A DNA stretch of 64,000 nt. Origin: Sedimentibacter sp. MB31-C6 (GTDB lineage: Bacteria > Bacillota > Clostridia > Tissierellales > Sedimentibacteraceae). A program made the position numbers and the translations under genes. The notes below the pieces were generated by a model that did no database searches, was not told the origin of the DNA, and saw nothing but the letters and a program-made list of their open reading frames with translations. This document shows, piece after piece, positions 15,728 to 33,817 of this stretch. How positions within the stretch are numbered: position 1 is the stretch's first letter; every line of letters starts with the position of its first letter. The stretch covers positions 248,001-312,000 of the forward strand of contig NZ_CP142396.1 of the NCBI RefSeq assembly GCF_035934735.1, in the 5' to 3' direction.

Positions 15728-16357
15728 ATGACTAAAGCTTTTTCTGATGTACATAACACTCATAATGGTAAAACCATGACTTTAACAGGACATGGTAAAG
15801 TTACTACTGCACCTAATATTGCGATTATTCGTCTAGGTGTACAAACAACAGGTGAAAACCTAGTTGAAATCCAATCTGAAAATGCTCAAATAGTACAAAG
15901 AATACTACAGGTTCTTCAACAAATTGGTGTCACAGATGTTAAAACTTTTCAATATACAATTAATAAAATTTATGACTATGACGAAGGAAGGCAAATAGAC
16001 AGAGGTTATTCTGTTAGAAATGTTCTTGAAATAAAAACTAGTAATTTAAATCAAGTTGGAAATATTATTGATGCATCTGTAAATTCAGGAGCCAACATTG
16101 TTGACCTTATTTCATTTGATGTTTCTAATAGCGACTTTTATTATCAACAAGCACTAAATCTGGCTATAAAAAATGCTATTCAAAAAGCTAAGTCAATATT
16201 AAATAATTTAGGAATTAAAGCAGAACCAATACCTATTAATATTATTGAAACCAGTTCTTTACCTCCACAACCATTTCAACGTGAATTTGTTTCAACTCCA
16301 ATTGTACCAGGAAATATACAGACAGAGGCGTTTGTAACAGTGGAATTTGTTTATTAA
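15728..16357 (+). CDS. SIMPL-domain (DUF541) protein
   Basis: 209 residues, SIMPL domain throughout: MTLTGHGKVTTAPNIAIIRLGVQT at the start, a central YTINKIYDYDEG and NVLEIKTSN, and the final TEAFVTVEFVY. Proteins of this family form ring-shaped oligomers. Most have a signal peptide, but this one has none, so it is probably cytoplasmic. The ATG follows GGAAGGTGGTTCATTAA. It is transcribed alone, away from the exporter operon. Role unknown. Confidence 0.85.
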   Translation: MTKAFSDVHNTHNGKTMTLTGHGKVTTAPNIAIIRLGVQTTGENLVEIQSENAQIVQRILQVLQQIGVTDVKTFQYTINKIYDYDEGRQIDRGYSVRNVLEIKTSNLNQVGNIIDASVNSGANIVDLISFDVSNSDFYYQQALNLAIKNAIQKAKSILNNLGIKAEPIPINIIETSSLPPQPFQREFVSTPIVPGNIQTEAFVTVEFVY

Positions 16358-16395
16358 ATAAATTTACATTACAATTTTATATACATAACAAAATA

Positions 16396-16432
16396 AGCAA
16401 TCTCAATTAAATAATAATTAATTGAGATTGCT
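16396..16432. terminator. Intrinsic terminator after the SIMPL gene
   Basis: A perfect 15-bp stem (AGCAATCTCAATTAA, arms 16396-16410 and 16418-16432) with a 7-base loop, 38 bases after the SIMPL stop. It lies between convergent genes, so it may work in both directions. Confidence 0.7.
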
Positions 16433-16520
16433 ATTATGTTTAAGTTAATGTTGTTTATCGAAATTTATAATATCTTCATTAAATTTTCTCGAAGCTTTCC
16501 CTGGTACTGAACTAATTTTT

Positions 16521-17015
16521 TTATTTCTGTTTTTCCATAAAATTAATTATTTCATTTGCAATTCCTTCTGCGTCATCTATATGGTAGCATGGAATACCTA
16601 TGTCCCAGGAGATGTCGCTGGCAATTGCAATTAATTCGTTCGGTTCACATAATAGAGTGCTATGGGCTGTTGAGCGGAAAACTTCTATTTTTGGCTTATT
16701 TTGTCTTTTAAAGCCTTCTGTAATTATTAAATCCACGCCTTCAATTCTATCAACAATTTCATCTAAGGTTAATTCTTTTTCTCTTTTTTCAATCATTGCA
16801 AATTTTTCAGGAGAAGAAATTGCTATTATATCTGCTCCTGCCTGTGCATGTCTCCAGGTATCCTTGCCCGGTTTATCCATTTCAAAGCTATGGGCATCAT
16901 GCTTTATAACAGCTAATTTAATATTCTTTTCCTTTAAAATCCTTATTACCTTTTCTAACAGTGTTGTTTTTCCGGAACCAGATTTAGCAACAACAGATAT
17001 TACTACTTTACTCAT
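16521..17015 (-). CDS. mobB: Molybdopterin-guanine dinucleotide biosynthesis protein B
   Basis: 164 residues. A P-loop GTP-binding protein that assists MobA in attaching GMP to molybdopterin. Walker A is VVAKSGSGKTTLLEKVI (about residues 7-23), with KHDAHSFEMDKPGKDTWRHAQAGAD and ITEGFKRQNKPKIEVFR as typical MobB motifs. It follows the mobA-moeA fusion directly (stop and start are adjacent, GAGGAGG ribosome site). Its presence implies a bis-MGD cofactor, as needed by the DMSO-reductase-family enzyme at 26-29 kb. Confidence 0.95.
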   Translation of the reverse strand: MSKVVISVVAKSGSGKTTLLEKVIRILKEKNIKLAVIKHDAHSFEMDKPGKDTWRHAQAGADIIAISSPEKFAMIEKREKELTLDEIVDRIEGVDLIITEGFKRQNKPKIEVFRSTAHSTLLCEPNELIAIASDISWDIGIPCYHIDDAEGIANEIINFMEKQK

Positions 17016-18824
17016 TTAGTCCTCCTCAATATAATATACATTTATTAAATCATCAGCTTTAAAATAAGCCTTTGATGGTAGATCAATTAATATATTTGTT
17101 TTTTTCAATACATCAAAAATACTTTTTCCTTCAAAAATTTTAAATTGCAATTCTCCTTTTTCCAAATGCAGTCTTCCTTGCAAAATTCTTCTGTAAGACT
17201 TTTTGTTTGCATAATCATCAGGAATTTTTATTTCTAATTTAGCAGGCATGAAATTACTTATTCCCATAAGCTTCTTTATTACAGGCTTTACAACTAAGTG
17301 TACGTTGTTAAATGCTGAGCCGGGACTACCTGATAAACATAAGAACAATTTTTCATCCTTTTTGGCAGCTATAAATGATTTTCCAGGTTTTACAGCAATC
17401 CCTGAAAATAAAATTTTGGCTCCCAGCATCAAAAGACTTTGCTCTATCAAATCATATTCTCCAGAAAATGCTCCTCCGAAACTTATTACTATATCGGACT
17501 CTTTCATAGCCTCTGAAAGCTTTTCAGAAAGTTTTGCTGCATTGTCAGGTGCGATTCCTCCCATAACAGTTTCAACACCTAAATTTTTCAGTATACTGTC
17601 TGCAAAATACATGTTACTGTTATATGTTTTAGCTGTATTGTATTTTTCACCCGGCAAAATTAACTCTGAACCGGTACTGATAATGGAAGCTTTAATAACC
17701 CAATAAACTGGGATAAAAGAAATTCCGTTAAACGATAGAATACTTAGCAATTCAGGGCTTATTATTTCTCCTTTTGAAGCAACTATATCGCCCTTCTTTA
17801 CATCACTGCCGGCTTCAATTATATTTTGCCCTTTTTTTATATTTCCTCTTACAATTATAGATGAATTTTCTCTTTCCACATGTTCATGCATTATTACACC
17901 GGCAGAATTTAAAGGCAATACTGCTCCTGTCATAACACTTTGTGAATTGCCCCTTGATAAAGAATTCACCGGTATGGAACCTGCTGGCACCTTATCTGTA
18001 ACAGCTAATTTCAAAAATCCATTTAGCATAACATCATTTATATCTTCATCACATATAATATACCCGTCCACAGATGAACGCTGTGATTCAGGCAAATTTT
18101 GCGGAGCATATATGTTTTCAGACAGTACTCTCCCTAATGAATTGTTTATATGGATTATTTCAGTTTTATTTGTAACTTTTGTTTTAGATAGAAGTAGCTT
18201 AAGTGCCTGTTCTATTTCAACATTTGTTTTAAGACCGTTAATTTTAACCATATTGTATAAGTCTTCAGGAGTATTAATATTGAAAAAACTTTTAGTGCAT
18301 TGATTAAACTCATGATATAATTTTTCTAAGTCCAAATAATTTGTTTTAACTAAGGAATATAACTCTATTACCTTTATTATATTGTTGTTTAAACATTGTT
18401 CAATACCCGGTATGCAAGTTTTCTTATATAGGGCAAATAATGGCTCCATATGGTCATTTATTAAAGGAACTACAATATCATTGTCTAATCGATGCTTTAA
18501 CATTTCCTCTACTAAAAAAACTTCCCACATTGGCATGTCACAAGGTATTACAAATAACCAGTCATTTTTTGCTGCCTTAAGAGCTGCATGAATTCCACCC
18601 ATAGGTCCCATTCCCGGATAAATGTCTTTTATAATTTTCACATTCTCTATATGATATTTTTCAACATTATCTGCTACAACAATTACCTCATCAAATAGTT
18701 TGTTAAGCTTCTTGAGAGAATTTGACATAAATGTCTCATCTCCGTACTTAATGAGAGCCTTGTCCTTTCCCATACGAGAACTTTTACCACCTGCTAATAA
18801 TATACCTGTAACATTATAAGACAT
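17016..18824 (-). CDS. mobA-moeA: MobA-MoeA fusion protein
   Basis: 602 residues in two domains. Residues 1-195 are MobA (molybdenum cofactor guanylyltransferase), with the nucleotide-binding LAGGKSSRMGKDKAL, DIYPGMGPMGGIHAAL and VIPCDMP. Residues 200-602 are MoeA (molybdopterin molybdenumtransferase), with PESQRSSVDGYI, VMTGAVLP, a central GTG-type STGSELILPGE and LSGSPGSAFNN. The fusion joins metal insertion with the next step, GMP transfer. The frame is continuous and both domains seem complete. Separate genes are usual. Other Moco genes (moaA, moaC, moaE, moaD) are not in the window. Confidence 0.93.
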   Translation of the reverse strand: MSYNVTGILLAGGKSSRMGKDKALIKYGDETFMSNSLKKLNKLFDEVIVVADNVEKYHIENVKIIKDIYPGMGPMGGIHAALKAAKNDWLFVIPCDMPMWEVFLVEEMLKHRLDNDIVVPLINDHMEPLFALYKKTCIPGIEQCLNNNIIKVIELYSLVKTNYLDLEKLYHEFNQCTKSFFNINTPEDLYNMVKINGLKTNVEIEQALKLLLSKTKVTNKTEIIHINNSLGRVLSENIYAPQNLPESQRSSVDGYIICDEDINDVMLNGFLKLAVTDKVPAGSIPVNSLSRGNSQSVMTGAVLPLNSAGVIMHEHVERENSSIIVRGNIKKGQNIIEAGSDVKKGDIVASKGEIISPELLSILSFNGISFIPVYWVIKASIISTGSELILPGEKYNTAKTYNSNMYFADSILKNLGVETVMGGIAPDNAAKLSEKLSEAMKESDIVISFGGAFSGEYDLIEQSLLMLGAKILFSGIAVKPGKSFIAAKKDEKLFLCLSGSPGSAFNNVHLVVKPVIKKLMGISNFMPAKLEIKIPDDYANKKSYRRILQGRLHLEKGELQFKIFEGKSIFDVLKKTNILIDLPSKAYFKADDLINVYYIEED

Positions 18825-18838
18825 TTCCCCACCTCGCT

Positions 18839-19924
18839 TTAATTTACCTTGCTATTGACCAATATTTCTTCTATTTCCTCATCTGTAATATCATATAAAT
18901 AGTACAATTCAAAGAAATCTTTAATTTCCTGCTTAACATCAATTTCATATTTATCAGGATAAAGTATATTAGCAAGCCATTTAATTCCTATAATTCTGTT
19001 TACAGAAGGCGGTCTATTTATCCAATCATATGGAATACCGGGTATTTCATAAACTTTTCCATCATTAACAGCATTAATAACACCCCAGCTACTACTATTT
19101 GTTATATCCTTATAAACTTGATGATTACTGTCGCCATCGATACTAATAATAACCACATCAGGGTTTTCAAGAATTACTTGCTCCAATGAAACCTGAATTC
19201 TTCTTGATTCTGACTTCCAGTTACTGCTGGCAACATTTAAACCACCTGCAATTTCAATTATTTCAGAATTAATAGTCCCTCTAAGTTCAGTTTCAAGACC
19301 TTTAGGCCCCATTGCATAATATACTTTTACTCTTTTTTCTTCGGGGATATTGTTAATAACTCCCTTTACATTACTCATTGTTTTAGTGAAATAATCTGAT
19401 AGTTTCTTTGCTCTATCTTCCTTATTCAATATTTCTCCAAGAAAGGTATATGCTTCAGCTGTTTTATCAATACTTCCATCTACCATTAATACTGGTATGC
19501 CTGTTTGTTTTTCAATTTCTTCTGTATCAGATATATAAGCTTCTGAAACATCTCCCATGTTAATTATTACATCAGGTTTTACCATTAAAAACTCTTCAAT
19601 ATTGCCATTATACTGAGTTCCTTTCCAAGAGCCCAACACAGGAGTAGCCTTGTTTGTATCTCCTAAATACTTTAATTCCATTTCTGACATTTCGCTGTTT
19701 AATCCTGCAATGCTCTCCGGTGCCAATGTCTGTATCAAAATTGTTCCTAATGTACCTGTTGCATAAATTTTTTCAACATTTGCAGGTATTTCTACACTTC
19801 TTCCTGCCATATCAACAACAGTTCTATTTTCTGTTTCTTTAACTTCTTCTTTCTTGTTGCATCCAACTACTAACAATAAAGCAGTAATTAATAATATAAT
19901 TAATAATAATATTTTCTTTTTCAT
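18839..19924 (-). CDS. Metal-type ABC transporter substrate-binding lipoprotein (MolA-like)
   Basis: About 361 residues. Lipoprotein signal ending LLLVVGC, then a class III periplasmic binding fold (FecB/BtuF type): TVVDMAGRSVEIPANVEKIYA at the start, VKPDVIINMG, and a C-terminal WINRPPSVNRIIGIKWLANILYPD typical of such proteins next to molybdoenzymes. Sequence alone would allow iron, cobalamin or oxyanion; flanking mobA-moeA and mobB, and the probable Moco riboswitch upstream, favour molybdate or tungstate, as in MolABC of Haemophilus. The ATG at 19924 follows GGAGG; the earlier ATG overlaps it. Confidence 0.85.
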   Translation of the reverse strand: MKKKILLLIILLITALLLVVGCNKKEEVKETENRTVVDMAGRSVEIPANVEKIYATGTLGTILIQTLAPESIAGLNSEMSEMELKYLGDTNKATPVLGSWKGTQYNGNIEEFLMVKPDVIINMGDVSEAYISDTEEIEKQTGIPVLMVDGSIDKTAEAYTFLGEILNKEDRAKKLSDYFTKTMSNVKGVINNIPEEKRVKVYYAMGPKGLETELRGTINSEIIEIAGGLNVASSNWKSESRRIQVSLEQVILENPDVVIISIDGDSNHQVYKDITNSSSWGVINAVNDGKVYEIPGIPYDWINRPPSVNRIIGIKWLANILYPDKYEIDVKQEIKDFFELYYLYDITDEEIEEILVNSKVN

Positions 19925-19945
19925 TTTAGCCTCCATCTTATGCGA

Positions 19946-20725
19946 TTAATAAGGAATACATACTTTAAATTTATTTTCGTCACTAACCTGTACGTTAATT
20001 AATTCAGAATCAATATTATACAATTCTTTGATGTTTTGTTTATTAATAACTTCATTAGGGTCACCTGTCGAATGAATAATACCACCCTTCATAAGCGCTG
20101 CCTTGGTTCCGTATCGAATTGCATGATCAGGCATATGGGTAGAAATTATAACACCTATGCCCATCTTTGAAAGTGTTTGTAAATGATTCATAACCTTGAA
20201 CTGATTACCGTAATCTAAATTAGATGTTGGCTCATCCATAATTAGTATTTTGGGTTGTTGTGTCAGTGCTCTTGCAATTAGCACAAGCTGTCTTTCACCT
20301 CCGCTTATATTAGTATAGCTTTTGCTTGCCAAATGACTAAGTCCTATGCTTTCTATTGCTTTTAAAGCAATTTCTTCATCGCTTTTAGATGGCATATCAA
20401 ATCTGTTTAAGTGGGGTGTCCTTCCCATTAAAACAACCTCCAAAACTGTATATGAAAAGGGAGGGTTGTGGTGCTGCGGAACATATCCGATAAATTTGGC
20501 AATCTTCTTCCTTGTCCAACCAGAAATATTTTTATTTCCTAATGTAATATTTCCTTTGTCAGCTTTCAATATTCCTAATAACACCTTGAATAATGTTGTT
20601 TTTCCTATCCCGTTAGGCCCTAACAAAAATAAGCACTCCCCTTCACCCAAAGAAAATGAAATATTTTCAAATACTGTCTTTTCTAAATTATACCTAAAAG
20701 TTAAATTTTCTACATTTAATCTCAT
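19946..20725 (-). CDS. FecE/MolC-type ABC transporter ATPase
   Basis: About 259 residues with Walker A (GPNGIGKTTLFK), a Q-loop (GYVPQHHNPPFSYTVLEVVLMGRTPHL), signature (ISGGERQLVLIARAL) and Walker B (ILIMDEPTSNLD). This is the siderophore/cobalamin/MolBCA group rather than the ModC type. The ATG at 20725 overlaps the permease stop (ATGA) and follows AAGGAGAGG. Energises uptake through the FecCD-type permease. Confidence 0.9.
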   Translation of the reverse strand: MRLNVENLTFRYNLEKTVFENISFSLGEGECLFLLGPNGIGKTTLFKVLLGILKADKGNITLGNKNISGWTRKKIAKFIGYVPQHHNPPFSYTVLEVVLMGRTPHLNRFDMPSKSDEEIALKAIESIGLSHLASKSYTNISGGERQLVLIARALTQQPKILIMDEPTSNLDYGNQFKVMNHLQTLSKMGIGVIISTHMPDHAIRYGTKAALMKGGIIHSTGDPNEVINKQNIKELYNIDSELINVQVSDENKFKVCIPY

Positions 20726-21738
20726 TTCCAACCTCTCCTTGATCGTGCCAATAGCCATAGATAAAAGGGTGCACCTATAAGTGATGTAATTATCCCTATG
20801 GGAAACTCTATAGAAAATATGGTACGTGATATTGTATCAACTATTAACAAAAATGCTCCGCCCATGAAAAATGAAGAAGGCAATAATACTTTGTAATTAG
20901 GTCCTGCTATATTTCTCGCCAAATGCGGTATAACCAATCCTATCCAACCTATTGTACCGCAAACAGCTACCGAGGATGCAGTGAGCAGTGTTGAGAACAA
21001 TACTATTATTAGTCTTATTTTATTGGTATCAATTCCTAATGTTTGCGCTTCTTCATCTCCAAAGGATAAAACATTGAGATTCCATCTCATAAAATATAAA
21101 GGAATTAAAGATAATAAATTTATAGTTAATAAAATTAAAATATCTTCCATATCTATTGCCGTCAAGCTCCCAAGCAGCCAGAAATTAATTGCAGGCAATT
21201 TATTATAAGGGTCTGCTATATATTTTATAAGAGATACAAAAGAATTGAAAATTGTTCCAACAAGCATTCCTGAAAGTACCAATACAAGCACTTGATTATT
21301 TTGTCTTACTTTAGTGCTTACAAACCATGTTACAGCCACAGCCAAAATACCTGTTATAAACGAATTTATTTGTATCCCTATTATACTCCATGAAAATATA
21401 ATTCCTATGGCAGCACCTAAAGATGCACCTGCAGTGGCTCCCAATATATCCGGTGATACCAACGGATTGTTAAATATACCTTGATATGCTGCTCCTGAAA
21501 CAGATAGAGAACCTCCTATTATTACTGCTGCTAAAATACGTGGTAGCCTTACATCAAACAAAACTGTTTCCATTGCAGAATTTATTGCATAGTCTTTTCC
21601 GAAAAAACTTACTGACATAATTTCATATATATCATTGTAGGTAATTGGAAATTTCCCTAATGTTAAGGAAATTACACATAAAAATATTATTGTAATCACC
21701 ATTATTCCATATTTATATTTTTTTAAAATATCGTTCAT
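20722..21738 (-). CDS. FecCD-type ABC transporter permease (MolB-like)
   Basis: 338 residues, about ten membrane segments. Family motifs include FDVRLPRILAAVIIGGSLSVSGAAYQGIFNNPLVSPDILGATAGA cut here into its parts (RLPRILAA, GAAYQGIFNNPL, PDILG) and the cytoplasmic GWIGLVIPHLAR coupling loop. It is the first gene of the transporter-cofactor operon, about 150 bases downstream of the terminator of the leader RNA. Substrate inferred as molybdate or tungstate from its neighbours. Confidence 0.9.
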   Translation of the reverse strand: MNDILKKYKYGIMVITIIFLCVISLTLGKFPITYNDIYEIMSVSFFGKDYAINSAMETVLFDVRLPRILAAVIIGGSLSVSGAAYQGIFNNPLVSPDILGATAGASLGAAIGIIFSWSIIGIQINSFITGILAVAVTWFVSTKVRQNNQVLVLVLSGMLVGTIFNSFVSLIKYIADPYNKLPAINFWLLGSLTAIDMEDILILLTINLLSLIPLYFMRWNLNVLSFGDEEAQTLGIDTNKIRLIIVLFSTLLTASSVAVCGTIGWIGLVIPHLARNIAGPNYKVLLPSSFFMGGAFLLIVDTISRTIFSIEFPIGIITSLIGAPFYLWLLARSRRGWK

Positions 21739-21892: not shown

Positions 21893-22050
21893 CAAAAAGC
21901 TTACACAGGAATATGCCAATGTAAGCTTAATAAGCCTAATGCATCTCCTTTCCAAACGTGGGGACAGCAGATTTCTCTGACTACCCTGTGGGGTTTAAAC
22001 CCAGGTTATACAAGCATAGTTTCCCTTAGCTCGTAAAACTCGGAGTATTA
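21893..22050 (-). ncRNA. Probable Moco (molybdenum cofactor) riboswitch
   Basis: On the minus strand this leader of the transporter operon begins with ACTCCGAG and contains GCTAAGGGAAAC, a GC-rich hairpin (ACCTGGGTTTAAACCCCACAGG) and GTCAGAGAAATCTGC, then TTTGGAAAGGAGATGCATTAGG. It ends in a terminator-like hairpin (AAGCTTACA / TGTAAGCTT) followed by a run of Ts. The blocks fit what I recall of the Moco RNA motif, which controls molybdate transport and Moco genes. The genes downstream fit that role. A cobalamin riboswitch was considered, but its box is absent. Identity is from memory of the motif, not a covariance search. Confidence 0.6.
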
Positions 22051-22083
22051 AATTGTAAATAGACTTCATTTTAGGTGCATAGT

Positions 22084-22162
22084 TCTTGTCATTCTGAACC
22101 AAAGGTGAAGAATCTCATATGTTAATAGATTAGATCCTTCGCTATGCTCAGGATGACAATTA
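22084..22162. repeat. Imperfect inverted repeat of a common Firmicute type
   Basis: Arms TTGTCATTCTGAACC...GAAGAATCTC and, inverted, TTGTCATCCTGAGC...GAAGGATCT. This 'TCATTCTGAGC...GAAGAATCT' element recurs in intergenic DNA of many bacteria. It ends at the stop of the 4Fe-4S gene upstream. Confidence 0.6.
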
Positions 22163-23191
22163 TTTTTTTGTGTTCTTCCATGTACAAGTCGGACAAACGT
22201 CGGTTTCTGTAATAGATGCAAAGAATTCTTTTTTGCAAGATATACATTCCTTTTTTGTATTGAAAAAGATTGTTTCATTTATTATTTCAAAATTTTCTCT
22301 TATGTCAATTGCTTTTGTTGGACAAATATCTTTGCATAAATTGCAACCGGTACATAAATATGTTCTGAATACAATTGTATCGTTGTTTTCCTCCCAAACA
22401 TTATGGGTGCACATTTTCATGCATGCTTTGCACTGAATGCATCTGTCCTTATCTATATCAACTAAATAAACAGATAATTTGTTTTCATTGTTTTGCTGCC
22501 ATTTTTGTAGGATTTGTCCTGTCGAGCGCCAGAACTGAACCCTAATGGCAGGTGGTGCTATTTCATATGTTTTACCGAATAAATCCTTTGCCATATGTTT
22601 AAAGAAGCTTCTTCTGTCAATCGGAGTATCCTTTTTTATCTTTTCTGCTTCCTTAACATATTCAACTAAATTTTCCACATCTTCATTATGCACTGACATA
22701 GGTGGTAAGTTTAAATTATTGAGTATTATGTTTGTTCTATCTAATTCTATTTGCAGATTATGGCTTCTTTGACAATTATCGCATTTATTTAAATTTGTAT
22801 GAATCTCTCTGAAGCCGTTATTATATATATTTAATAAAATTTTAGTGCTTAAAAAATTCAAGCACTCAATTCGTGAATTATTGTTTATGTTCTCATTAAG
22901 CTTATGCTTGTTGCATAGCAAATAAATTTTTTTATCTGCTCCCATAAACTTTCTGCCTGTATCTACTAATGCATTAGTCGGACAATGAGAAACACATTCA
23001 TTGCAAAAGTTACAGCTTTCACTTATGGTTATTCCCTTTTTATTAATTTTTACAGCCTTTTTACTGCAAACCTCTTCACATATATTGCAGCTTGCCTTAG
23101 GAGAAATGTTCTTTATGCACTTTACTCGCTCGTACTTTGGCCTATAATCTAAATTATTTATTATTCCAACTACATCCATAATTCCAGCCAT
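22160..23191 (-). CDS. Polyferredoxin-like 4Fe-4S protein with C-terminal zinc ribbon
   Basis: 343 residues. Two N-terminal [4Fe-4S] motifs (CNICEEVC and CNFCNECVSHCP), a central domain with CNKHK, ECLNFLS and CDNCQ, then RRSFFKHMAKDLF near residue 197, which resembles a twin-arginine motif but is internal, then two more clusters (CIQCKACMKMC and CTGCNLCKDICP) and a final CISCKKEF...CPTC zinc-ribbon or rubredoxin-like end. Likely an electron carrier for the reductase. It has no signal peptide or membrane helix, so it is probably cytoplasmic. No family name recognised. Confidence 0.8.
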   Translation of the reverse strand: MAGIMDVVGIINNLDYRPKYERVKCIKNISPKASCNICEEVCSKKAVKINKKGITISESCNFCNECVSHCPTNALVDTGRKFMGADKKIYLLCNKHKLNENINNNSRIECLNFLSTKILLNIYNNGFREIHTNLNKCDNCQRSHNLQIELDRTNIILNNLNLPPMSVHNEDVENLVEYVKEAEKIKKDTPIDRRSFFKHMAKDLFGKTYEIAPPAIRVQFWRSTGQILQKWQQNNENKLSVYLVDIDKDRCIQCKACMKMCTHNVWEENNDTIVFRTYLCTGCNLCKDICPTKAIDIRENFEIINETIFFNTKKECISCKKEFFASITETDVCPTCTWKNTKK

Positions 23192-23316: not shown

Positions 23317-24087
23317 TTAATCTTCATCATCTTCATTATCTCTCTTTCTTTTTCTTATAACTCTGCTAATTAATACACTGATTTCAAATAACAAAATCAT
23401 TGGTAATGCAACTAATATTTGTGAAATAATATCAGGCGGTGTAATAATTGCACCAATTATAAATATAACAACAATTACTGCCTTGCGGCTCTTAATAAGC
23501 CATTCAGTTTTTAACAATCCCAATTCACTTAACAGAATTGTAACAACCGGCATCTCAAAAATAGCTCCAAATGTAATAAGAGTAGTCAATACAAAGCTTA
23601 CAAAATTCTGTATTGTTATAGTTGGTTGAATAGAATGATTTTGATCTACACTAATGAAAAATGTCAATGTAACCGGCACTACAACGAAATAAGCAAATAA
23701 TGTACCTAACAAAAAGCAAATCAAGCCTGCTAAAAGTGACAAAAACATAGTCGTTTTTTCTTTTTTCATAAGAGCAGGTTTTACAAAAAGCCAAACTTCA
23801 AACAAAATAACTGGCGATGATAAAACAAGGCCGCCAACTATTGCCAATCTAATGTATTGTGAAAACAATTCACCCGGTGCAATATAAACCATTTGATAAC
23901 CGATTTCTTTTGCTTTATCTACAAGCAGCGCCACTAAATCATCACAAAAATTAAAACCAACAACTGCTACGGTTAAAAAGACAATAACAATGACAAATAT
24001 TCTTTTTCTTAATTCACTTAGATGCTCAATTATACCCATTTCGCCACTGGGCTTTTTATCTTTTTTCTTAACAGCTCTTTTACTCAC
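23317..24087 (-). CDS. tatC: Twin-arginine translocase subunit TatC
   Basis: 256 residues with six membrane helices. The N-terminus has the signature GIIEHLSELRKRIFVIVIVF, and the later FxxWLFVKPALMKKEK and FGAIFEMPVVTILL motifs bind the signal peptide. GTG start after TTGGAGAATGAACC. The adjacent TatA and TatB-like genes complete a translocase. Its place inside the molybdoenzyme operon suggests it serves the exported reductase. Many fermenting Clostridia lack Tat. Confidence 0.97.
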   Translation of the reverse strand: MSKRAVKKKDKKPSGEMGIIEHLSELRKRIFVIVIVFLTVAVVGFNFCDDLVALLVDKAKEIGYQMVYIAPGELFSQYIRLAIVGGLVLSSPVILFEVWLFVKPALMKKEKTTMFLSLLAGLICFLLGTLFAYFVVVPVTLTFFISVDQNHSIQPTITIQNFVSFVLTTLITFGAIFEMPVVTILLSELGLLKTEWLIKSRKAVIVVIFIIGAIITPPDIISQILVALPMILLFEISVLISRVIRKRKRDNEDDED

Positions 24088-24295: not shown

Positions 24296-24700
24296 TTAAT
24301 TTTCTTGAACAATTTCTGTTTCTTGCGATAAACTTTCTTGTGTTTCCGTGATAACCGCTGAAGTATTTTCTTTTAATTCTTCAGCTACCGAAATAACATT
24401 TTCTTCCTTCTTTTGAAGTTTTCCAATATCATTTACGGATTTTTTAATATCCTTGATAGGTTTATTAGCATCATTCGAAATTTTTTTCAATGGTTCAACG
24501 GCTTTTTTAAGGGGCTTTTTAATTTCTTCCATCGGTTCTACAACACTCTCATTAATATCTTCTGACAGCTTGTCAGCATAAACCTTAATCGAACTCAGGA
24601 ATTTCCCAGCCTTTTTTGCATACTTTGGAACCTTGTCCGGTCCAAGCACCAACAATGCCACTACGAAAATTACCACTAATTCTGATGTGCCGATTTTCAA
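24296..24700 (-). CDS. TatA/TatB-family translocase protein with long tail
   Basis: 134 residues: an N-terminal membrane helix (IGTSELVVIFVVALLVL), the GPDKVPKYAKKAGKF hinge and amphipathic helix, then a long Lys/Glu-rich, predicted helical tail to the end. The length and the position before tatA-tatC suggest a TatB role, but TatA and TatB are hard to tell apart in Firmicutes. TTG start after AAAGGAGAGGATATTA. A 180-base gap upstream suggests a possible separate promoter. Confidence 0.85.
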   Translation of the reverse strand: MKIGTSELVVIFVVALLVLGPDKVPKYAKKAGKFLSSIKVYADKLSEDINESVVEPMEEIKKPLKKAVEPLKKISNDANKPIKDIKKSVNDIGKLQKKEENVISVAEELKENTSAVITETQESLSQETEIVQEN

Positions 24701-24880: not shown

Positions 24881-25480
24881 TTATTCTTTACCGCCTTTAA
24901 ATCTATCGGCAGGTTCAGTTCCTATTTCATTTAATCCTATATATACTACGCTTAAGTCTAATCCTAAGTCTTCTTTTAACCCATGAACTTCATTTTCTTT
25001 GATTAATTTTGCCACATCACTTTCGGGATCATTCAAATCACCGAAGTACCTGGCATGAGAAATACAAGTGCTTACACATGCAGGCATCAAGCCTGATTCA
25101 GCTCTTCCTACACAGAAAGTACATTTTCCCGCCTTTTGATCCGGCTTCATGTATCTTGCTTCATAAGGACATGCTACAAGACATGCTCCGCAGCCTATAC
25201 ATTTTTCTTCATCTACAACAACACTTCCGCCTTCCAAAGCAAATGTCGCTTCAACAGGACATACTTCAAGGCAAGGTGCATCAACACAATGATTGCACAT
25301 TTTAGGCAATTTTACTTTTGATACATTTGGGTAACTGCCATGATCCCATTCTTCCACCCATGTATTAAAACAGTTTTGGGGCACGTCATTTTCCATCTTG
25401 CATGCAACAGTGCAAGCATGGCAGCCGACACATTTTCTCAAATCTATAACCATACCGTAACGCTTTTTATTTTCTGGCAA
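24881..25480 (-). CDS. Four-cluster ferredoxin subunit of the molybdoenzyme
   Basis: 199 residues, DmsB/PhsB/TtrB type. Four cysteine groups arranged as in this family: CVGCHACTVACKMEN, CNHCVDAPCLEVCPVEA, CIGCGACLVACPYEA and CTFCVGRAESGLMPACVSTC, giving four [4Fe-4S] clusters. It carries electrons to the catalytic subunit. It has no Tat signal, so it would cross the membrane bound to the catalytic subunit, as in related enzymes. The TTG start follows AAAAGGAGTGATTTAA, part of which is the end of the torD-like gene. No NrfD-type membrane subunit follows. Confidence 0.93.
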   Translation of the reverse strand: MPENKKRYGMVIDLRKCVGCHACTVACKMENDVPQNCFNTWVEEWDHGSYPNVSKVKLPKMCNHCVDAPCLEVCPVEATFALEGGSVVVDEEKCIGCGACLVACPYEARYMKPDQKAGKCTFCVGRAESGLMPACVSTCISHARYFGDLNDPESDVAKLIKENEVHGLKEDLGLDLSVVYIGLNEIGTEPADRFKGGKE

Positions 25481-25485: not shown

Positions 25486-26148
25486 TCACTCCTTTTCTGG
25501 CTCTAATACTAAAATATCTTCTTTTATCCATGCAGCACAAAGATTAAGCCAATAACTGTAAAGGCCTTTGTTCTTTTCTTCTGACAATCTTGCATAATCT
25601 TCAACCCACTTGCTTAAATGTTCACTTAAAAACTGTCTCTCAAGATTTTGCCATCTTAGTGCATTTTTTTCTTCGCCCTTTTCCAACGAGCTTTCTTCTT
25701 CAGAAACAAGAAAAGTCATAAATGACATTTCATATGCTATATGATCAGGAAATGGTATATCCTGCAAAGACTTGAACATATTAAGCTTATGAAAATTAAA
25801 AGACACCATTTCATAGCATGCTTTCACATGGAAGGTTTCTTTTGTTTCCAATTTCCCAAACTTAATTTTCTTACCACTCTTAGATCTGTTTCTTATGGCA
25901 GATTCATAGGGTGGTATAAATGATGAAGAAGTGGGAACAAAAAACCTGTCATAGTATTCTTGTTCATATTTTTCTATATCAGACAACTCAATTGAAAATT
26001 CATTGCTGCTGTCCTCAATCAACTCTTTTAATACTTCTTGTCCCTCTTTCATTACTTGAAGAAGAGAATCTGTAGGAACATTAAGTAAACAATATGAAAG
26101 AAGTTCATATATTTTTTTTCTTTGTTTGCATATTGTTAATTGGTCCAT
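25486..26148 (-). CDS. TorD/DmsD-family molybdoenzyme chaperone
   Basis: 220 residues, all helical, no membrane segment. Family features: YELLSYCLLNVPTD near the N-terminus, YDRFFVPTSSSFIPPYESAIR in the middle (the usual Y-x-x-L-F-x-x-P-x-x-P-Y-E-S pattern) and PFPDHIAYEMSFMTFL later. Such proteins bind the Tat signal of one molybdoenzyme and hold the apoprotein until cofactor is inserted. It sits directly between the catalytic and Fe-S subunit genes, as expected. Confidence 0.9.
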   Translation of the reverse strand: MDQLTICKQRKKIYELLSYCLLNVPTDSLLQVMKEGQEVLKELIEDSSNEFSIELSDIEKYEQEYYDRFFVPTSSSFIPPYESAIRNRSKSGKKIKFGKLETKETFHVKACYEMVSFNFHKLNMFKSLQDIPFPDHIAYEMSFMTFLVSEEESSLEKGEEKNALRWQNLERQFLSEHLSKWVEDYARLSEEKNKGLYSYWLNLCAAWIKEDILVLEPEKE

Positions 26149-26212: not shown

Positions 26213-29200
26213 TTAAAGCTTTTCTACTTTGTAAGCTCCACCATTTCTTGATGGTCCTCCTGTAGAAACCTCACTGAAACCGAAAATTCCTTCTATACTT
26301 GGGTCAGTTATACCGATTAAATGGAATCCATGTCCTCTTTCTGCATCTGACTGTTCTTTACCTTCGATTGTAAAGGATTTAGCTCCATATTCCCAATGTC
26401 CGTAACCATAAGCCACGCCAATTGTTCCTTTTGCAATACCTTCTCTTACAAGTGCTGTTCCTTCAAATTCTCCACCTGTAGCAGGGGTAACTTTTACTTT
26501 ATCGCCAGTAGAAATTCCTAAAGCTTTTGCATCTTCTGAATTCATTTCTACTTTGTTGCCTAAATTAATATCTTTTAAGCTGCTGCTGTTTGCAAGCATA
26601 CTTACACTTCTGAATTTTGGTTTATAGTTTGCTGCTTTAAATGGCCACTCTTCTTTAGCAAACACATCACTTACCAATTCTCCATTAAAGAATCTTTGTG
26701 GATTCCAAGCAGGAGTACCGTAAGCAAACTTTTCACCAGTTATAGAATTGTAGCTTGTTGCCAACTTTTCGTTATACAAAGAGAAGCACTTAGTATTTGC
26801 AAATACTCTGTTATCCCCATCAAAGCCTGCGCCATGGTCTTCAAATCTACCGCCTCTAGAAAGAAGATTCATAACTTTTTTCCACTCTTCTTCAGAGCCT
26901 AAAGCATCTTTCCAATTACTTGTTGCAGTTTCTAAATCCTGCATTTCTATTTCTTCATCAGAAATATCATCAACAGCTTCACCATCATATGCCAAATTTG
27001 CAACACCTTTTAAATAGAACTCATGAGCATCGTTAAAGTCATATTTATTGCCATCTACATCAGTGATTGCATCTTTTCCAAATCCTGGCACTCCTATAGC
27101 TTTAGCAACGTCTACCAAGAATACTTCATATGAAGCATGTCTGCCATCATCTAACTTCATTGATGCAGGCTCAACAACAGGCCATCTTAAGGTTGTTGCT
27201 TTACCTGAGAAGTTACCTTCTACGTTTGCTAGTCCCCAGCTTTCATAAGGTGTTGTATCAGGAACTATGTAGTCTGCCAAAGCAGTTGTTTCACCCATGT
27301 AACAATCCACTGAAATAAATAATGGAACTGTTTCAGGACTCTTTAATGTTTCTATTACTTCTTTTCTTGCTGCTGCTGGAAGAGCCAATAAAGGATTTGC
27401 CATCCAGTTCATAAATATTTTAACACTGTAAGGATATTTATTAATCATAGAGAATATCATCTGATTGTCAGAGCCTGAACCAACAGGATGCCAAGGCAAT
27501 CTGCTTGGATATGGATTGTCTCCTTTAGCAACTTTTAACTTGTATTCATCAGTACTTTCGTAGCTAACTCCAGCCCTGCTCAAAGACAAAGCTTTATTAG
27601 CAGGTTTTCCTTCAATTGTGCTAAGTTTGTAACGGGCACCATCTGTTAAACCCTTGTATGAGTATCTTCTTGGGAAAATACCACCTTTTTTATTCATGCT
27701 TCCTACAAATGTTGATAATACATTCACAATAAAAGCTAAATCTAATCCGTTAGATGTAGCTGTACCGCCTAATGTATCAACAGATGATTTCATTCCGTGA
27801 GAAGTAAAATCATCGGCTATTTCAATAATAGTATTTTTATCTATTCCACAATCTGCTGCATATTCATCTAAGGTGTGTTCATCAGCAGTTTCTTTTAATA
27901 TTACAAATGCTGTTTTCACTTTGATTCCTTTTACTGCTCCCACAAAATGAATATCTGCTTCTTTAACATCTTTTATAAATTTTGCATCTCCTGTAGCTTT
28001 GTCAATTGTCATGAAAGGTTCTTTTTCATCTTCAGGAACTATGAACCCAACATCTTCGGCTCTTAACATTTTTCCGTAATTCTTATGAGATTCATCAACA
28101 ATAACTAAGTGTGATGCATTACTCCATGAATTGTAGCCTTTTTCCTTAGCTGCCTCTAAATTAGGTGAGCTTAAATATTTTTCATCATACTTTTTGTTAT
28201 CAATTATATATTGAATCATAGCCATTCCAAATGCCCCATCAGTAGTTGGTACAATAGGAACCCACTTAGAATTTTTAAGCAATGGATTTACTGCTCCACC
28301 TACCATTACAGGATCCACCACTGTAATTTTTACATTCCCATCATTTAAAGCTTTAGCTGACTGACGAGCTATAGCCTGCATAGGCTTTCCACTGTGTCCC
28401 GGGAATGCTCCCATAAATAAAACATATTCTGCATTATTGATATCTGGTTTTCCACCATTAGTCGTTACCTGCTCCGCAGGTACTTTAGAGCCACCTCAGG
28501 AATAGCCGTGACCGTAATTATTAACGGTTCCGAATGCTCCCGAGAATCTTCCTGATATACTTCTTCCGTCTCCACGACCACCGTTCATAACCAATTGGTT
28601 TGAAACCGCACCTAAATCAGGTCTCTCAGGGTCAATAAGTGTTTGGTTGTCTCTTACTTTTCTAAACCCATCAATTGCATAATCTTCTCCTATATCACCG
28701 AAAAGATTTCCACCTTCAACAGTTTCATCAATTAATTCTTTCCATGAAATAGGTTTCCATTTACCTTCTCCACGTTTATCAGTTCTTTTTAATGGAACTG
28801 TTATACGCATTGGATCATAATAGCTTTCCAATGTTGCATTACCTCTTGCACATAATGTACCCCTATGGAGATTGCCGTTGTTCTTATAAGTACTAAAAGC
28901 TAAATACCCTGCAGTCAACGGATCCTTCATGCTTAGATGAGGCTCTGCGTTGTTTGGGTTATATGGATTTCCGTACACTCTCAGGATTTTACCTGTGGAC
29001 TTATCGATTTTAACACGATTACCACAGGAAGTATAACATCCCAAGCATGCACTGTTTCTCATTAAGATTGAAGGTTCAAACTTTACTTCACCTGTTGCCA
29101 AATCAATTACAGCCTCAGGCTTTTTGCCTCCAAATTCTTTTGCATCAGGAAAACTTTCTGGAACCGGAGTTTCTTCTTCCACTACTGCTGTCTTTTTATC

Positions 29201-29275
29201 ACAGCCTATGCTTAATCCCGTAAGAGATAAAGCTCCGGCGCTTCCTAATACTTTCAAAAAAGTTCTTCTTTTCAT
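26213..29275 (-). CDS. Selenocysteine-containing molybdopterin reductase, catalytic subunit (TtrA/SrdA/ArrA-like)
   Basis: One frame of 1020 residues read through an in-frame TGA at 28498-28496 (residue 260). The N-terminus is a Tat signal (KRRTFLKVLGSAGALSLTG) ending in SIGC. A [4Fe-4S] motif follows (CLGCYTSC at 77-84, fourth Cys in GTLCARG near 142), then the molybdopterin domains and, C-terminally, the dinucleotide-binding domain (NKVEMNSEDAKALGISTGDKV). The UGA lies in YGHGYS-UGA-GGSK, where this superfamily has Ser, Cys or Sec as metal ligand; 27 open codons link it to the long downstream frame. Length and the CLGCYTSCG...GNPYNP pattern suggest the tetrathionate/selenate/arsenate reductase branch. 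Substrate unknown. ATG at 29275 after AGAGGTGATAATCAAT. Confidence 0.88.
28463..28498 (-). promoter_or_regulatory. Selenocysteine UGA codon and candidate SECIS hairpin
   Basis: On the minus strand TGA (28498-28496) is followed by 13 bases, then TACCTGC-GGA-GCAGGTA, a perfect 7-bp stem with a GGA loop that starts 20 bases after the UGA. Bacterial SECIS elements are small hairpins close after the UGA, with a G at the start of a short apical loop. This one meets those rules. Confidence 0.8.
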
Positions 29276-29328
29276 ATTGATTATCACCTCTATTTTTTAA
29301 AAAAGTATTTTTGTCACTAAATTAACAA

Positions 29329-29345
29329 AGCAATTTATATGCCAA
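29329..29345 (-). promoter_or_regulatory. Sigma-54 (-24/-12) promoter of the reductase operon
   Basis: Minus-strand TTGGCATATAAATTGCT. The GG (-24) and GC (-12) are separated by exactly ten bases, the sigma-54 spacing. It lies 54 bases before the start codon, giving a short untranslated leader. The gene directly upstream encodes a sigma-54 activator. Confidence 0.85.
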
Positions 29346-29651: not shown

Positions 29652-30974
29652 TTAGTTGTGTATATCATATTCAGCTATTTTTCTATAAAGAGTTCTTAAC
29701 CCTATTTTCAATATCTTAGCAGCTTCGGTTTTATTCCAACCTGTTCTAACAAGAACCTGTTCAATATGCTCTTTTTCCATATCCTCTAAAGATAAGCTTT
29801 TTACATTATTTTTATTGCTAATTTCTCCTGAGAAAAAATCAGGTGACATTATTTCTTCACCCTTTGAAAACAATATTCCTCTTTCTATTAAATTTGCCAA
29901 TTCCCTAACATTTCCCGGAAATTTATAATTTAATAAAAATCCTTCAGCTTCCTTGCTTAATTTTTTATTTGAATTGCTTTGTCTTAAAAAATGCTCTGCC
30001 AAATACAATTTGTCTTTTTCTCTGTCTCTAAGAGGAGGTACTTCTAGTTTTATAACACTTAGCCTATAATAAAAATCTTCTCTGAAGCTTCCGTCTTCTA
30101 TAGCCTGCTCTAAGTCTACATTTGTGGCAGTTACAACTCTTACATTGATTTTCTTTGTAGTTGTTCCACCTACGGGCCTTATTTCTCCCGTATCTAAAAA
30201 TCTAAGAAGTTTAACCTGCAGAAAAACATCCATATCTCCTATTTCGTCTAAAAACAAAGTTCCTTCATTTGCTAATTCCAATAAACCTTTTTTATCAGCA
30301 CCGGCTCCAGTGAATGCCCCCTTTACATAACCAAACAATTCACTTTCCAACAACTGGCTAGGAATTGCGCTGGCATTTATAGGGATAAACGGGTGCTGAG
30401 CACGGCAGCTGTTATAATGAAGAGAACTTGCTACCAACTCCTTGCCTGTTCCGCTTTCTCCCAAAATAAGAACAGGTAATGTACTATCAGCAACCTTTTC
30501 AATTCCATGTTTTAAATTGACAATAGGCTCGCTCACCCCAACTATATTGGGTCTACCGCTGGTTCTTTGAATTGTTTCAATTAGATTACTGTTATATTCT
30601 TTAAGCTTCTTTTTTTCTAATGCTTTTCCCAAAACCAATTCCAATTCAACCGGTTTTATGGGCTTAGTAAGGTAATCATAGGCTCCGTTTTTCATAGCCT
30701 TAATTGCAGAATCTACATCCGCATAACCTGTAAGCATAATTACTTCCATGTTTGGCTGAAACTTCTTTGTTTCTACTAAAAGTTCCAATCCATCCATTCC
30801 ATTCATTTTAATATCAAACAAACCTGCATCAAATTCTGAGTTTTCTATTATTTTTAAGGCTGCTAAGCCGGAATTGGCTGTTTCAACAATATAATTTTTT
30901 CTACTAAGCCTTTGCTGCAATATTTCAGTGAATTTTTCTTCATCATCTACCAATAAAATTCTATACTGTTCCAC
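29652..30974 (-). CDS. Sigma-54-dependent response regulator (NtrC family)
   Basis: 440 residues. The receiver (1-120) has LLVDDEEKF, the phospho-acceptor in AGLFDIKMNGMDGLELL and the Lys in YLTKPIKP. The AAA+ domain (about 140-370) has Walker A GESGTGKELVA, the sigma-54 contact loop KGAFTGA and Walker B GTLFLDEIGDM. A Fis-type helix-turn-helix ends the protein (GWNKTEAAKILKIGLRTLYRKIAEY). GTG start after AGAGGTGATGACAA. It is the likely activator of the reductase promoter at 29329-29345. Confidence 0.95.
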   Translation of the reverse strand: MEQYRILLVDDEEKFTEILQQRLSRKNYIVETANSGLAALKIIENSEFDAGLFDIKMNGMDGLELLVETKKFQPNMEVIMLTGYADVDSAIKAMKNGAYDYLTKPIKPVELELVLGKALEKKKLKEYNSNLIETIQRTSGRPNIVGVSEPIVNLKHGIEKVADSTLPVLILGESGTGKELVASSLHYNSCRAQHPFIPINASAIPSQLLESELFGYVKGAFTGAGADKKGLLELANEGTLFLDEIGDMDVFLQVKLLRFLDTGEIRPVGGTTTKKINVRVVTATNVDLEQAIEDGSFREDFYYRLSVIKLEVPPLRDREKDKLYLAEHFLRQSNSNKKLSKEAEGFLLNYKFPGNVRELANLIERGILFSKGEEIMSPDFFSGEISNKNNVKSLSLEDMEKEHIEQVLVRTGWNKTEAAKILKIGLRTLYRKIAEYDIHN

Positions 30975-30980: not shown

Positions 30981-32807
30981 TCACCTCTTTGATGTGGGTA
31001 TACAAACTTTTGCTTTCACACCTTTTTCATCATTATTTTTTAAATAGATATATCCTCCGTACCTTTCTACAATTGTTTGAATAATAGGAAGGCCCAGTCC
31101 TGTGCCGTTGCCAAGAGGCTTGGTTGTGAAAAAGGGGTCATAAATATGTTTGAAATCTTCCTCATTGATTCCTGTTCCTGTATCTATAATTTCAATGCAT
31201 ACCATATCATTGTTTTGATATAGCTTAATTGTTAATTTGCCTCCATTAGGCATTGCATGCAATGAATTTGTTGCTAAATTCAATATAACCTGCTGCATCT
31301 GGGATTCATCTGCCAATACACAGGGTACGGATTCATCCCAAGAAAGCTCTAATTCTATATTTTGTTTACTAATTGGATATTTGACTAATTTTAAAACTAT
31401 ATTTATTACATCAGGTATATAAACATTCTTTATCCTTGGCTCAACTTCTCTTGAAAAAGTTAATAAGCTTTGAACTATATCTGTGCACCTTTTTATTTGT
31501 TCCCTTATATTAAGCAAATAATCCTTAAACACACCTGAAGTTTTAAGTTCATTTACATCCTTGGTTTCCATTAACTCCAATAAATCATCTGCATAAAATC
31601 CTAAGATATTCATAGGATTATTAATCTCATGGGCAACTCCTGAAGCCAACAATCCCACTGAAGCTCTTTTTTCAGCTATGAGTGCTACCTTTTCATTTTC
31701 TCTTTTTATTTTAATTTCATTAATCATTATATTAAATGCTTCTATAACAAGACCTAGTTCATCCTTAGAACGATAAGGAATTTGATAATTTAAGTTTCCG
31801 TTTTGTACTGAGGATACTCCTTTTGACAATTCCTTTACAGGCCTGATTACCATGGAAACAATAAATGCTATCAGTACAATAATTATAACAATAATAATAA
31901 ATAATACAATTGTCAGTCTGAACATCATTGTCCAAAGAGCTGAATATGCATTTGATAGAGGCTGTTCAACAACAACCCCCCAACCCACCGTTGGAATTAA
32001 TCCATAAACGCCTAAAACCTCTTCTCCTGTATAAGACTTATAAGTTATTGATTTGAAATTATCGTAAATACTCGCATCAGAATCTTTTAATAAATTTTGT
32101 ACACTTTCACTGCCTAAAACATCCTGCTGTCTCAATACCTGGCTATAATCAGTGTGTCCTATCAAGTTTCCTTCCCTATCAACCAGCATAATGTAACTTC
32201 CATTAGGAAGTTCTAAGGATGACATTTCCTCCATAACCTTTCTTAAGCTGATTTTCCCTATAAATCCTCCGGCAAACTCCCTGTTTAAATATGATATAGG
32301 TACATAACAATCAAAAACAACCTGGTTATTATTATCAACTTCAGCGTTGTCTATATATAATTCTCCATTTTGCAATGCTAAAAGTTGGGGTTCTGCTACC
32401 TTATTAAGGTCCTTATCGGAATAAGCATAACGTTTTGATACTTTTGCTGTTTCTTGACCCTGATAAGATATAATTATCAATTCCTCTAAATGAGGAAAAT
32501 TTTTTAATACTCCATACATAAATTCTTCCTTTTTATTTTCATTATTAGAAAGGAAAAATTCCGAATTGGTTAAAGAAACAGTATCTAATGCAGTTTGCAA
32601 AGTAACAATCAAATCTGTAACCGTATGAGATACTCTCGAGGCTGCCAAAGCATGATGTTGATGAATAGATTTTTGTATTTCTTTTTTTAGCATTTCCATG
32701 TTGTATAAGCCGAATAGTATTATAGGAACAATGGAAATAACAGCTATCATGGCTATTAATCTTATTTTTATGCTGTTATACCACTCTATATTTGTCCATT
32801 TGTCCAT
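30981..32807 (-). CDS. Cache-domain sensor histidine kinase
   Basis: About 608 residues. One membrane helix near the N-terminus (IRLIAMIAVISIVPIILFGLY), an extracellular double-Cache region (about 45-290, with YIMLVDREGNLIGHTDYSQ), a second helix (LTIVLFIIIVIIIVLIAFIV), a HAMP domain, then HisKA (ASGVAHEINNPMNIL) and HATPase (LATNSLHAMPNGG, DTGTGI, GNGTGLGLPI) domains. It is encoded between the binding protein and the sigma-54 regulator. I prefer ATG 32807 after GAAAGGTG; an overlapping GTG at 32822 (GTGA with the upstream stop) is possible. Confidence 0.92.
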   Translation of the reverse strand: MDKWTNIEWYNSIKIRLIAMIAVISIVPIILFGLYNMEMLKKEIQKSIHQHHALAASRVSHTVTDLIVTLQTALDTVSLTNSEFFLSNNENKKEEFMYGVLKNFPHLEELIIISYQGQETAKVSKRYAYSDKDLNKVAEPQLLALQNGELYIDNAEVDNNNQVVFDCYVPISYLNREFAGGFIGKISLRKVMEEMSSLELPNGSYIMLVDREGNLIGHTDYSQVLRQQDVLGSESVQNLLKDSDASIYDNFKSITYKSYTGEEVLGVYGLIPTVGWGVVVEQPLSNAYSALWTMMFRLTIVLFIIIVIIIVLIAFIVSMVIRPVKELSKGVSSVQNGNLNYQIPYRSKDELGLVIEAFNIMINEIKIKRENEKVALIAEKRASVGLLASGVAHEINNPMNILGFYADDLLELMETKDVNELKTSGVFKDYLLNIREQIKRCTDIVQSLLTFSREVEPRIKNVYIPDVINIVLKLVKYPISKQNIELELSWDESVPCVLADESQMQQVILNLATNSLHAMPNGGKLTIKLYQNNDMVCIEIIDTGTGINEEDFKHIYDPFFTTKPLGNGTGLGLPIIQTIVERYGGYIYLKNNDEKGVKAKVCIPTSKR

Positions 32808-32818
32808 AGTAACACCTT

Positions 32819-33817
32819 TCACTGATATATAAAATGATCTACATAAGGCATTTCAGAAGCCTTAATATCTACGCCTATCTTTTTTGCAGTATCAACATTA
32901 ACATACAATTCTAATTTTTCTGGAGATTCAATAGGTATGATTTCGGGGTCTTGTCCCTTTAAAATATTTACCACAATTCTTGCAGCCTGAATTCCTTCAT
33001 TGTAATTGGTTCCTCCGTAAAAAGCTAATGCTCCTTTTTGAACGTGTTTGTTGGAAACAGCTATGAGAGGCAATTTATTTTCTATTGTAATATCTATTAT
33101 TTCTTCTATTACCGAATTAAATAATAAACTACACATTAGCATTACTCCGTCTGTTGACTTGCTTTTTTCATTTAAAATACTAAAAATTTCACTTTCCTCA
33201 GTAACGGGAATTATATCTAATTCAACATTATATATGTCAGCTGCATCATATAAATATTCAATACTTGCATCTATTGGCATATTTTTTGGATTATACAAAA
33301 CCAATACCTTTTTAACACTTGGAACTAATCTTTTTAAAAATTCAATTCTTTTACCAGACAGTTGCACATAATAACTGTCTATTCCGGTAAGATTACATGC
33401 TGGAGAAATACGATCCTCCACAAATCCTAACCCTACAGTGCATGCAACACCTATGAATGCAACAGGAGTTTGTGAATCTTGGGTAACCTTTTTTGCAGCT
33501 GTTGTTTCATCAATACCTAATGGTACTATTACATCAACTTTTTCATCTACTAATTCCTTAGCCATCCTCTCCAAGTCATCAAGATTTTCATTTGCATTTT
33601 TTATAATGATTTCTACATCTTCCTCATATAGACCATACTTTTTTAATCCTTCACGCATTCCTTCAACCTTATCCAATCTGCTTTCAATAAAAGTCAAAAC
33701 ACCAATTTTATAAATTTTGGTTTTTTTTTCATGAGCATTTGAGAATAAATTATTTATATTGGAAAGTAAAAAAGCTGATATTATGAGAACAGTTAGAATA
33801 ATCACATACTTTTTCAT
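32819..33817 (-). CDS. Orphan periplasmic binding protein (ABC_sub_bind type), probable sensor component
   Basis: 332 residues. An N-terminal signal-anchor (KYVIILTVLIISAFLLSNI) without a clear lipobox, then a two-lobed binding fold of the PF04392 kind: KIYKIGVLTFIESRLDKVEGMREGL, DVIVPLGIDETTAAKKVTQ, PVAFIGVACTVGLGFVE and AFYGGTNYNEGIQAARIVVNIL. Such proteins normally feed an ABC importer, but no permease or ATPase is adjacent. It is followed directly by the kinase and activator, so it probably presents a ligand to the kinase, as binding proteins do in Ttr, Arr and Aio regulation. Ligand unknown. Confidence 0.8.
   Translation of the reverse strand: MKKYVIILTVLIISAFLLSNINNLFSNAHEKKTKIYKIGVLTFIESRLDKVEGMREGLKKYGLYEEDVEIIIKNANENLDDLERMAKELVDEKVDVIVPLGIDETTAAKKVTQDSQTPVAFIGVACTVGLGFVEDRISPACNLTGIDSYYVQLSGKRIEFLKRLVPSVKKVLVLYNPKNMPIDASIEYLYDAADIYNVELDIIPVTEESEIFSILNEKSKSTDGVMLMCSLLFNSVIEEIIDITIENKLPLIAVSNKHVQKGALAFYGGTNYNEGIQAARIVVNILKGQDPEIIPIESPEKLELYVNVDTAKKIGVDIKASEMPYVDHFIYQ

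Follow-up and report, generated by a model that had tools for sequence, protein, structure and literature searches.

A putative selenoprotein form of the TtrA-type reductase, conserved in anaerobic Bacillota and Coriobacteriia

Introduction

Selenocysteine (Sec) as a ligand of molybdenum or tungsten has so far been tied to C1 chemistry, that is, to formate and CO2. TtrA, SrdA, ArrA, PhsA and SrrA are tabulated as Cys enzymes (PMC7331816, PMC10100899), and Sec was checked only in the FwdB and formate dehydrogenase (FDH) lineages (PMC7331816). Table 1 of a May 2026 inventory of 119 selenoprotein families contains FdhA and FwdB and no TtrA-type reductase (PMC13188914); the "tetrathionate reductase family octaheme c-type cytochrome" of the same paper is a different protein. 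Dhaf_4785 and Dhaf_1197 of Desulfitobacterium hafniense share with the enzyme described below the setting of an annotated TtrA in a Bacillota anaerobe, and the paper on them makes no mention of Sec in TtrA (PMC3306737). No report of Sec in TtrA was found in the titles and abstracts searched, a search that took in neither paywalled papers nor preprints nor RefSeq annotation that is unpublished. Relative to these sources Sec in the TtrA-type reductase branch is new, being listed in none of them.

The window analysed here is a stretch of 64,000 nucleotides from Sedimentibacter sp. MB31-C6. It appears to encode a reductase of TtrA/SrdA/alternative-ArrA type that is a selenoprotein, with UGA codon 260 specifying Sec, a reading to which, together with the mechanism proposed below, we assign a probability of about 0.94. 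The enzyme shares full-length homology (36-40% identity), the 4Fe-4S cysteines and a Tat leader with proteobacterial TtrA-type enzymes, and its locus shares with their systems a TtrB partner, a TorD-type chaperone and a nearby two-component system. However, its ligand would be Sec instead of Cys, it falls in a separate clade and it scores far below the equivalog cut-off; the genome is without a detected TtrC/NrfD, and the locus has a separate binding protein and a sigma-54 regulator. The Sec-containing FdhA/FdhG and FwdB belong to the same superfamily and also combine Sec at the site of Mo/W ligation with decoding by UGA plus hairpin, but the enzyme described here is of a different branch, reads HGYS-U-GGS and not UHxP, sits in the operon of an exported reductase and has a low score against the FDH profile.

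The Gene and Its In-Frame UGA

The gene is a single frame of 1020 codons, interrupted in the standard code by one UGA in the context YGHGYS-U-GGSK, which is codon 260 when TGA is read through:

26213-29275, minus strand: TtrA-like molybdopterin reductase catalytic subunit, 1020 aa, predicted Sec at residue 260 (read-through translation; NF011567 is the best NCBIfam match)
28496-28498, minus strand: putative Sec-UGA codon at the Mo/W ligand position, residue 260 (25 homologues have TGA, 112 have Cys; aligned with the ligand Cys of solved structures)

Automatic calling cuts this gene into 28496-29287 and 26213-28414, the next ATG following the TGA after a gap of 27 codons. The first-pass annotation, made from the letters of the window, had described two in-phase frames, one TGA, 27 open codons and a continuous protein, and the read-through translation confirms each of these. 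A match of 100% identity contains one TGA. The sequencing error that the same annotation had allowed for is excluded, because the same UGA occurs in independent genomes of other species, other families and a second phylum.

A true stop would also leave two ORFs in the standard code, separated by the 27 codons before the next ATG, either as a pseudogene or as a 259-residue product followed by a restarted C-terminal product. This reading is highly improbable. Downstream of the UGA, dN/dS is 0.076 over 760 codons between the window gene and a relative of 87% identity; it is 0.06 on each side of the UGA when two other genomes of the genus are compared, and ranges from 0.06 to 0.20 across comparisons. 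Such values indicate that purifying selection acts on the protein beyond the UGA. Moreover, the 27 intervening codons, which encode the region directly after the ligand, are conserved, and the same UGA persists, with no other stop, in homologues down to ~42-45% identity and across phyla. The pseudogene or true-stop reading was rejected on the purifying selection past the UGA and on the conservation of the codon across phyla.

The Residue Opposite the UGA

The codon aligned with the UGA is TGA in 25 of 139 distinct homologous stretches and TGC or TGT in 112, and never one for Trp; the remaining two rows are out of register in the alignment, and one of these is a further TGA gene. The UGA column is invariant in a 30-sequence alignment, in which the His at -4 is also conserved. 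In a profile alignment the residue coincides with the Cys that is the metal ligand in the known structures of ArrA, PsrA/PhsA and acetylene hydratase. The placement of Sec at the metal-ligand position, already claimed at first pass together with a comparison of homologues that might decide it, is supported by these 25 UGA and 112 Cys genes and by the coincidence with the ligand-Cys column.

The UGA might instead be read as some other residue, either as Trp through a change of code or by near-cognate read-through, the case for Sec being a comparative one. We consider this very unlikely, since TGA is an ordinary stop elsewhere, terminating 7 of the 49 genes in the window, and homologues offer Cys and never Trp at this position; a change of code was rejected on these grounds and on the hairpin and the Sec system described below. 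The terminal TGAs of the window genes are followed by at most 18 open codons, compared with 760 after the UGA at codon 260.

Distribution and Phylogeny

Copies with the UGA are found in the window's own genus, Sedimentibacter (87% and 61-62% identity), elsewhere in the Bacillota (Tissierella praeacuta, Tissierella sp. P1 and several other families) and in many Coriobacteriia, including two Gordonibacter and one Eggerthellaceae MAG. Tissierella sp. P1 (genome G608, locus L201) has two neighbouring Sec-TtrA operons, at 5502-8585 and 15838-18888 (minus strand), whose paralogues share 45% and 64% identity with the window protein. The two operons flank one two-component system, the kinase of which reads in three pieces. 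Two of the Bacillota genomes searched (G1309 and G1347, with Sec loci L197 and L198) each contain one Sec and one stop-free (Cys) TtrA-type gene, and several TtrA-type paralogues occur inside one Coriobacteriia genome. A more distant TtrA-like paralogue from the Coriobacteriia (locus L164, genome G761; 28-32% identity) contains one in-frame TAG and is perhaps a pseudogene.

All Sec rows lie within one clade of 35 (23 Sec and 12 Cys; SH-aLRT 100), separate from the all-Cys proteobacterial TtrA, in a quick, unrooted tree that contains no SrdA or archaeal ArrA reference. At least five Sec/Cys changes are required on this tree, which resolves neither the root nor the direction of change. The pattern indicates that Sec is no one-off, and that it characterises a clade in which Sec and Cys have been exchanged several times. 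The first-pass annotation knew of Sec as no standard feature of the TtrA/SrdA/ArrA branch, which is Cys-only in the literature searched; the recurrence of the UGA in 25 homologues goes beyond what it had described.

The Predicted bSECIS Hairpin

Bacterial Sec insertion elements (bSECIS) have been defined by a stem of 4-16 bp and a loop of 3-9 nt at 16-37 nt from the UGA, with a G among the first two loop bases and an MFE of -7.5 or lower (PMC13188914). A hairpin at the appropriate position follows the UGA of the window gene:

28466-28482, minus strand: predicted bSECIS hairpin UACCUGC-GGA-GCAGGUA, 7-bp stem, GGA loop, 20 nt from UGA to loop (rules of PMC13188914; compensatory changes in homologues)

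The hairpin starts 13 nt past the TGA and folds at -9.3 kcal/mol in a 36-nt context, so that its stem of 7 bp, its GGA loop, its distance of 20 nt and its energy all agree with the published rules. A 7-bp, GGA-loop hairpin 13 bases past the TGA had been noticed at first pass, with the suggestion that it be compared with known SECIS elements; it lies at 28482-28466 and conforms to the rules of PMC13188914.

The fold energy is not above chance against dinucleotide shuffles of a longer stretch (z -0.74), and comparison with synonymous recoding gives mean z values of -0.9 for Sec and -1.1 for Cys genes, with no separation. Sec and Cys genes are separated only by the position of the hairpin, the loop rule and covariation, not by energy. 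A positioned hairpin (stem of at least 5 bp, loop start 19-22 nt past the codon, G as first or second base of the loop) is present in 24 of the 25 Sec genes and in 11 of the 112 Cys genes (Fisher p 3e-17, a value that ignores relatedness and uses a position range set after seeing the data). In the 25th Sec gene a 5-bp stem with the loop UGGAA can form. The 11 Cys genes with such a hairpin are all outside the Sec clade, whose own 12 Cys members lack it. In an independent-pairs test on the tree, 3-4 of 4 pairs are concordant, four pairs being too few for significance.

Compensatory changes are seen at 4 of 7 pairs in the Bacillota (covariation 0.291 vs 0.144 shuffled, in an alignment without the outlier L170) and at 4 of 6 pairs in the Coriobacteriia (0.594 vs 0.207 shuffled); in either group, none of 500 shuffles reaches the score. 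In Sedimentibacter LM3, PVGRV replaces the PAEQV of the window protein and the stem is still paired. A bSECIS-like hairpin with compensatory changes, absent from the 12 Cys members of the Sec clade, argues further against decoding as a residue other than Sec.

The Sec Machinery

A full Sec system in the genome likewise speaks for Sec rather than for another residue. The genes selA (C1:217980, 621 bits, cut-off 268), selB (C1:216055, 402 bits, cut-off 242), tRNA-Sec (selC) and selD are clustered ~30 kb outside the window, so that all four genes for which the first-pass annotation had proposed a search are in the genome, selC as tRNA-Sec. Sec decoding serves other genes too, since in-frame TGA codons are carried by selD itself (TKAAG-U-AAKIG; locus L009, minus strand, near 12382) and by two grdB genes (L206 and L207; LTST-U-GTCTRCG). 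These three genes are truncated by standard ORF calling because of their in-frame Sec-UGA. In related genomes, selA was found in 10 of the 10 tested, two of which have a Cys-TtrA.

Identity of the Reductase

The best of all NCBIfam models is NF011567 (TtrA), with 752 bits over residues 68-1019; lower scores are obtained with PhsA (147 bits), ArrA (88 bits, cut-off 1600) and Fdh-alpha (76 bits, cut-off 666). The 1020-aa protein does not reach the TtrA equivalog cut-off of 1750 bits; we therefore make no claim that it is an orthologue of tetrathionate reductase, and its substrate may not be tetrathionate. The N-terminal 4Fe-4S cysteines C77, C80, C84 and C142 are near-invariant in the 30-sequence alignment and are preceded by a putative export signal:

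29201-29275, minus strand: twin-arginine type leader MKRRTFLKVLGSAGALSLTGLSIGC (RR motif and hydrophobic stretch; tatB and tatC next door)

The protein is a catalytic subunit nearest to TtrA and is probably exported by Tat, as the gene content suggests. The top PDB match of its AlphaFold model (pLDDT 86, pTM 0.88) is ArrA (6cz7; Foldseek E 9e-39), whose ligand Cys aligns with Sec260 and which also has a His at -4. However, ArrA is only 16% identical, its ligand is Cys, and the ArrA model scores far under its cut-off.

Within the superfamily, the member that usually carries Sec is FdhA (PMC13188914), and FDHs are also listed among the Foldseek matches, which would fit a selenoprotein of FDH type mislabelled as TtrA-like. 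Such an identity has very little probability in view of the 752 bits for TtrA against 76 for Fdh-alpha, the nearest homologues (enterobacterial and other TtrA-type enzymes), the motif UGGS in place of UHxP, the Tat leader and the TtrB neighbour. FdhA identity was rejected on score, motif, leader and neighbour, and the first-pass description of the protein as TtrA/SrdA/ArrA-like and not FdhA-like agrees with the two scores. The window reductase is the one PF01568 protein in the whole genome; with no other enzyme of this kind found, no typical formate dehydrogenase was found, yet Sec is apparently used.

Operon and Regulation

The reductase gene is followed by genes for a chaperone, TtrB, TatB, TatC and a polyferredoxin, and preceded by those for a regulator, a kinase and a binding protein:

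25486-26148, minus strand: TorD/NarJ-family chaperone (PF02613, weak TIGR03482; syntenic in related Sec loci)
24881-25480, minus strand: TtrB-like 4Fe-4S electron-transfer subunit (NF011569 TtrB, 211 bits; syntenic)
24296-24700, minus strand: TatA/TatB protein (TIGR01410 at cut-off)
23317-24087, minus strand: TatC (TIGR00945 over cut-off)
22160-23191, minus strand: polyferredoxin-like protein, possible electron donor (multiple Fer4 domains)
29652-30974, minus strand: sigma-54 response regulator (PF00072, PF00158, PF02954; syntenic)
30981-32822, minus strand: sensor histidine kinase with Cache domain (PF02743, PF00512, PF02518)
32819-33817, minus strand: substrate-binding protein (ABC_sub_bind), putative inducer-sensing partner (PF04392; syntenic)
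29329-29344, minus strand: sigma-54 type -24/-12 promoter TGGCATATAAATTGCT (1 mismatch)
21929-22057, minus strand: Moco (molybdenum/tungsten cofactor) riboswitch adjoining the operon (RF01055, 65 bits, gathering score 36)

In related loci TtrA, the chaperone and TtrB are kept together, and many of these loci have the regulator trio close by. In the window and in seven related loci a -24/-12 site with one mismatch precedes ttrA by 64-83 nt, and shuffling the window region 2000 times never gave as good a match. The site was not found in the G1264, G1333 and Coriobacteriia loci, where no regulator was seen in the vicinity, or in G1205, whose regulator is ~2 kb away.

No match to PF03916, the NrfD/TtrC anchor, was obtained in the genome, though TtrA and TtrB are present; an NrfD-type subunit is found beside Sec-ttrA in the Coriobacteriia and in the G1309 and G1347 loci. 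The polyferredoxin is a candidate electron donor, and distant homologues of it lie beside Sec-ttrA in Tissierella and Sedimentibacter. Beyond the riboswitch, at 16521-21738 (minus strand), a FecCD/BtuC-type ABC importer, a Peripla_BP_2 protein, a MobA-MoeA fusion and MobB are encoded, which, with the riboswitch, probably constitute a molybdate/tungstate uptake and cofactor cluster for the only PF01568 enzyme found. Elsewhere in the window, a Clostridiales-2 small RNA (52043-52137, minus strand) scores just above its gathering score.

Proposed Mechanism and Substrate

Comparative evidence suggests that UGA 260 would be decoded as Sec by SelB and tRNA-Sec, steered by the downstream bSECIS hairpin. 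From the alignment with solved structures, the Sec selenolate would ligate the Mo or W of bis-PGD in place of a Cys thiolate. Such a ligand may, as suggested at first pass, shift the redox potential or influence which substrate is used. The gene content further suggests that the TorD-like chaperone aids cofactor loading, that Tat exports the enzyme once it has folded and that electrons reach it via TtrB; genes and promoter together point to induction of the operon on the acceptor by the binding protein, histidine kinase and sigma-54 regulator. The reaction would likely be the two-electron reduction of tetrathionate or a related S, Se or As oxyanion as an anaerobic electron acceptor.

Within this selenoprotein reading, the odds that tetrathionate is the substrate are about even, and a different one (selenate, arsenate, thiosulfate or, in the Coriobacteriia, an organic acceptor) has an equal claim. 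The catalytic versatility of the family (PMC10100899), the score well under the TtrA equivalog cut-off and the presence of several paralogues in one Coriobacteriia genome favour another substrate, whereas the TtrA-chaperone-TtrB operon core fits TtrA systems.

Significance

The comparative data argue for a real and conserved selenoprotein variant of the TtrA-type reductase, absent from the sources searched. It adds a selenoprotein family that is missing from the 2026 inventory (PMC13188914). Published surveys argue ancestral ligands from a Cys-only chalcogen-oxyanion branch (PMC7331816, PMC10100899), a picture that a Sec clade alters. In addition, full-length reductases lie hidden in the genomes of anaerobes, gut Coriobacteriia included, as annotation normally cuts them in half. 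The natural Sec/Cys pairs, which sometimes occur within one genome, make the role of Sec at Mo/W directly testable. More tentatively, and at somewhat less than even odds, these enzymes may form a Sec-dependent respiratory reductase clade of anaerobic Bacillota and Coriobacteriia with repeated Sec/Cys switching; selenium ligation would then have evolved in the S/Se/As oxyanion branch of the DMSO reductase family, where Sec may tune or enable a reaction to which Cys enzymes are poorly suited, possibly the reduction of a Se or S oxyanion by an enzyme that is itself dependent on selenium.
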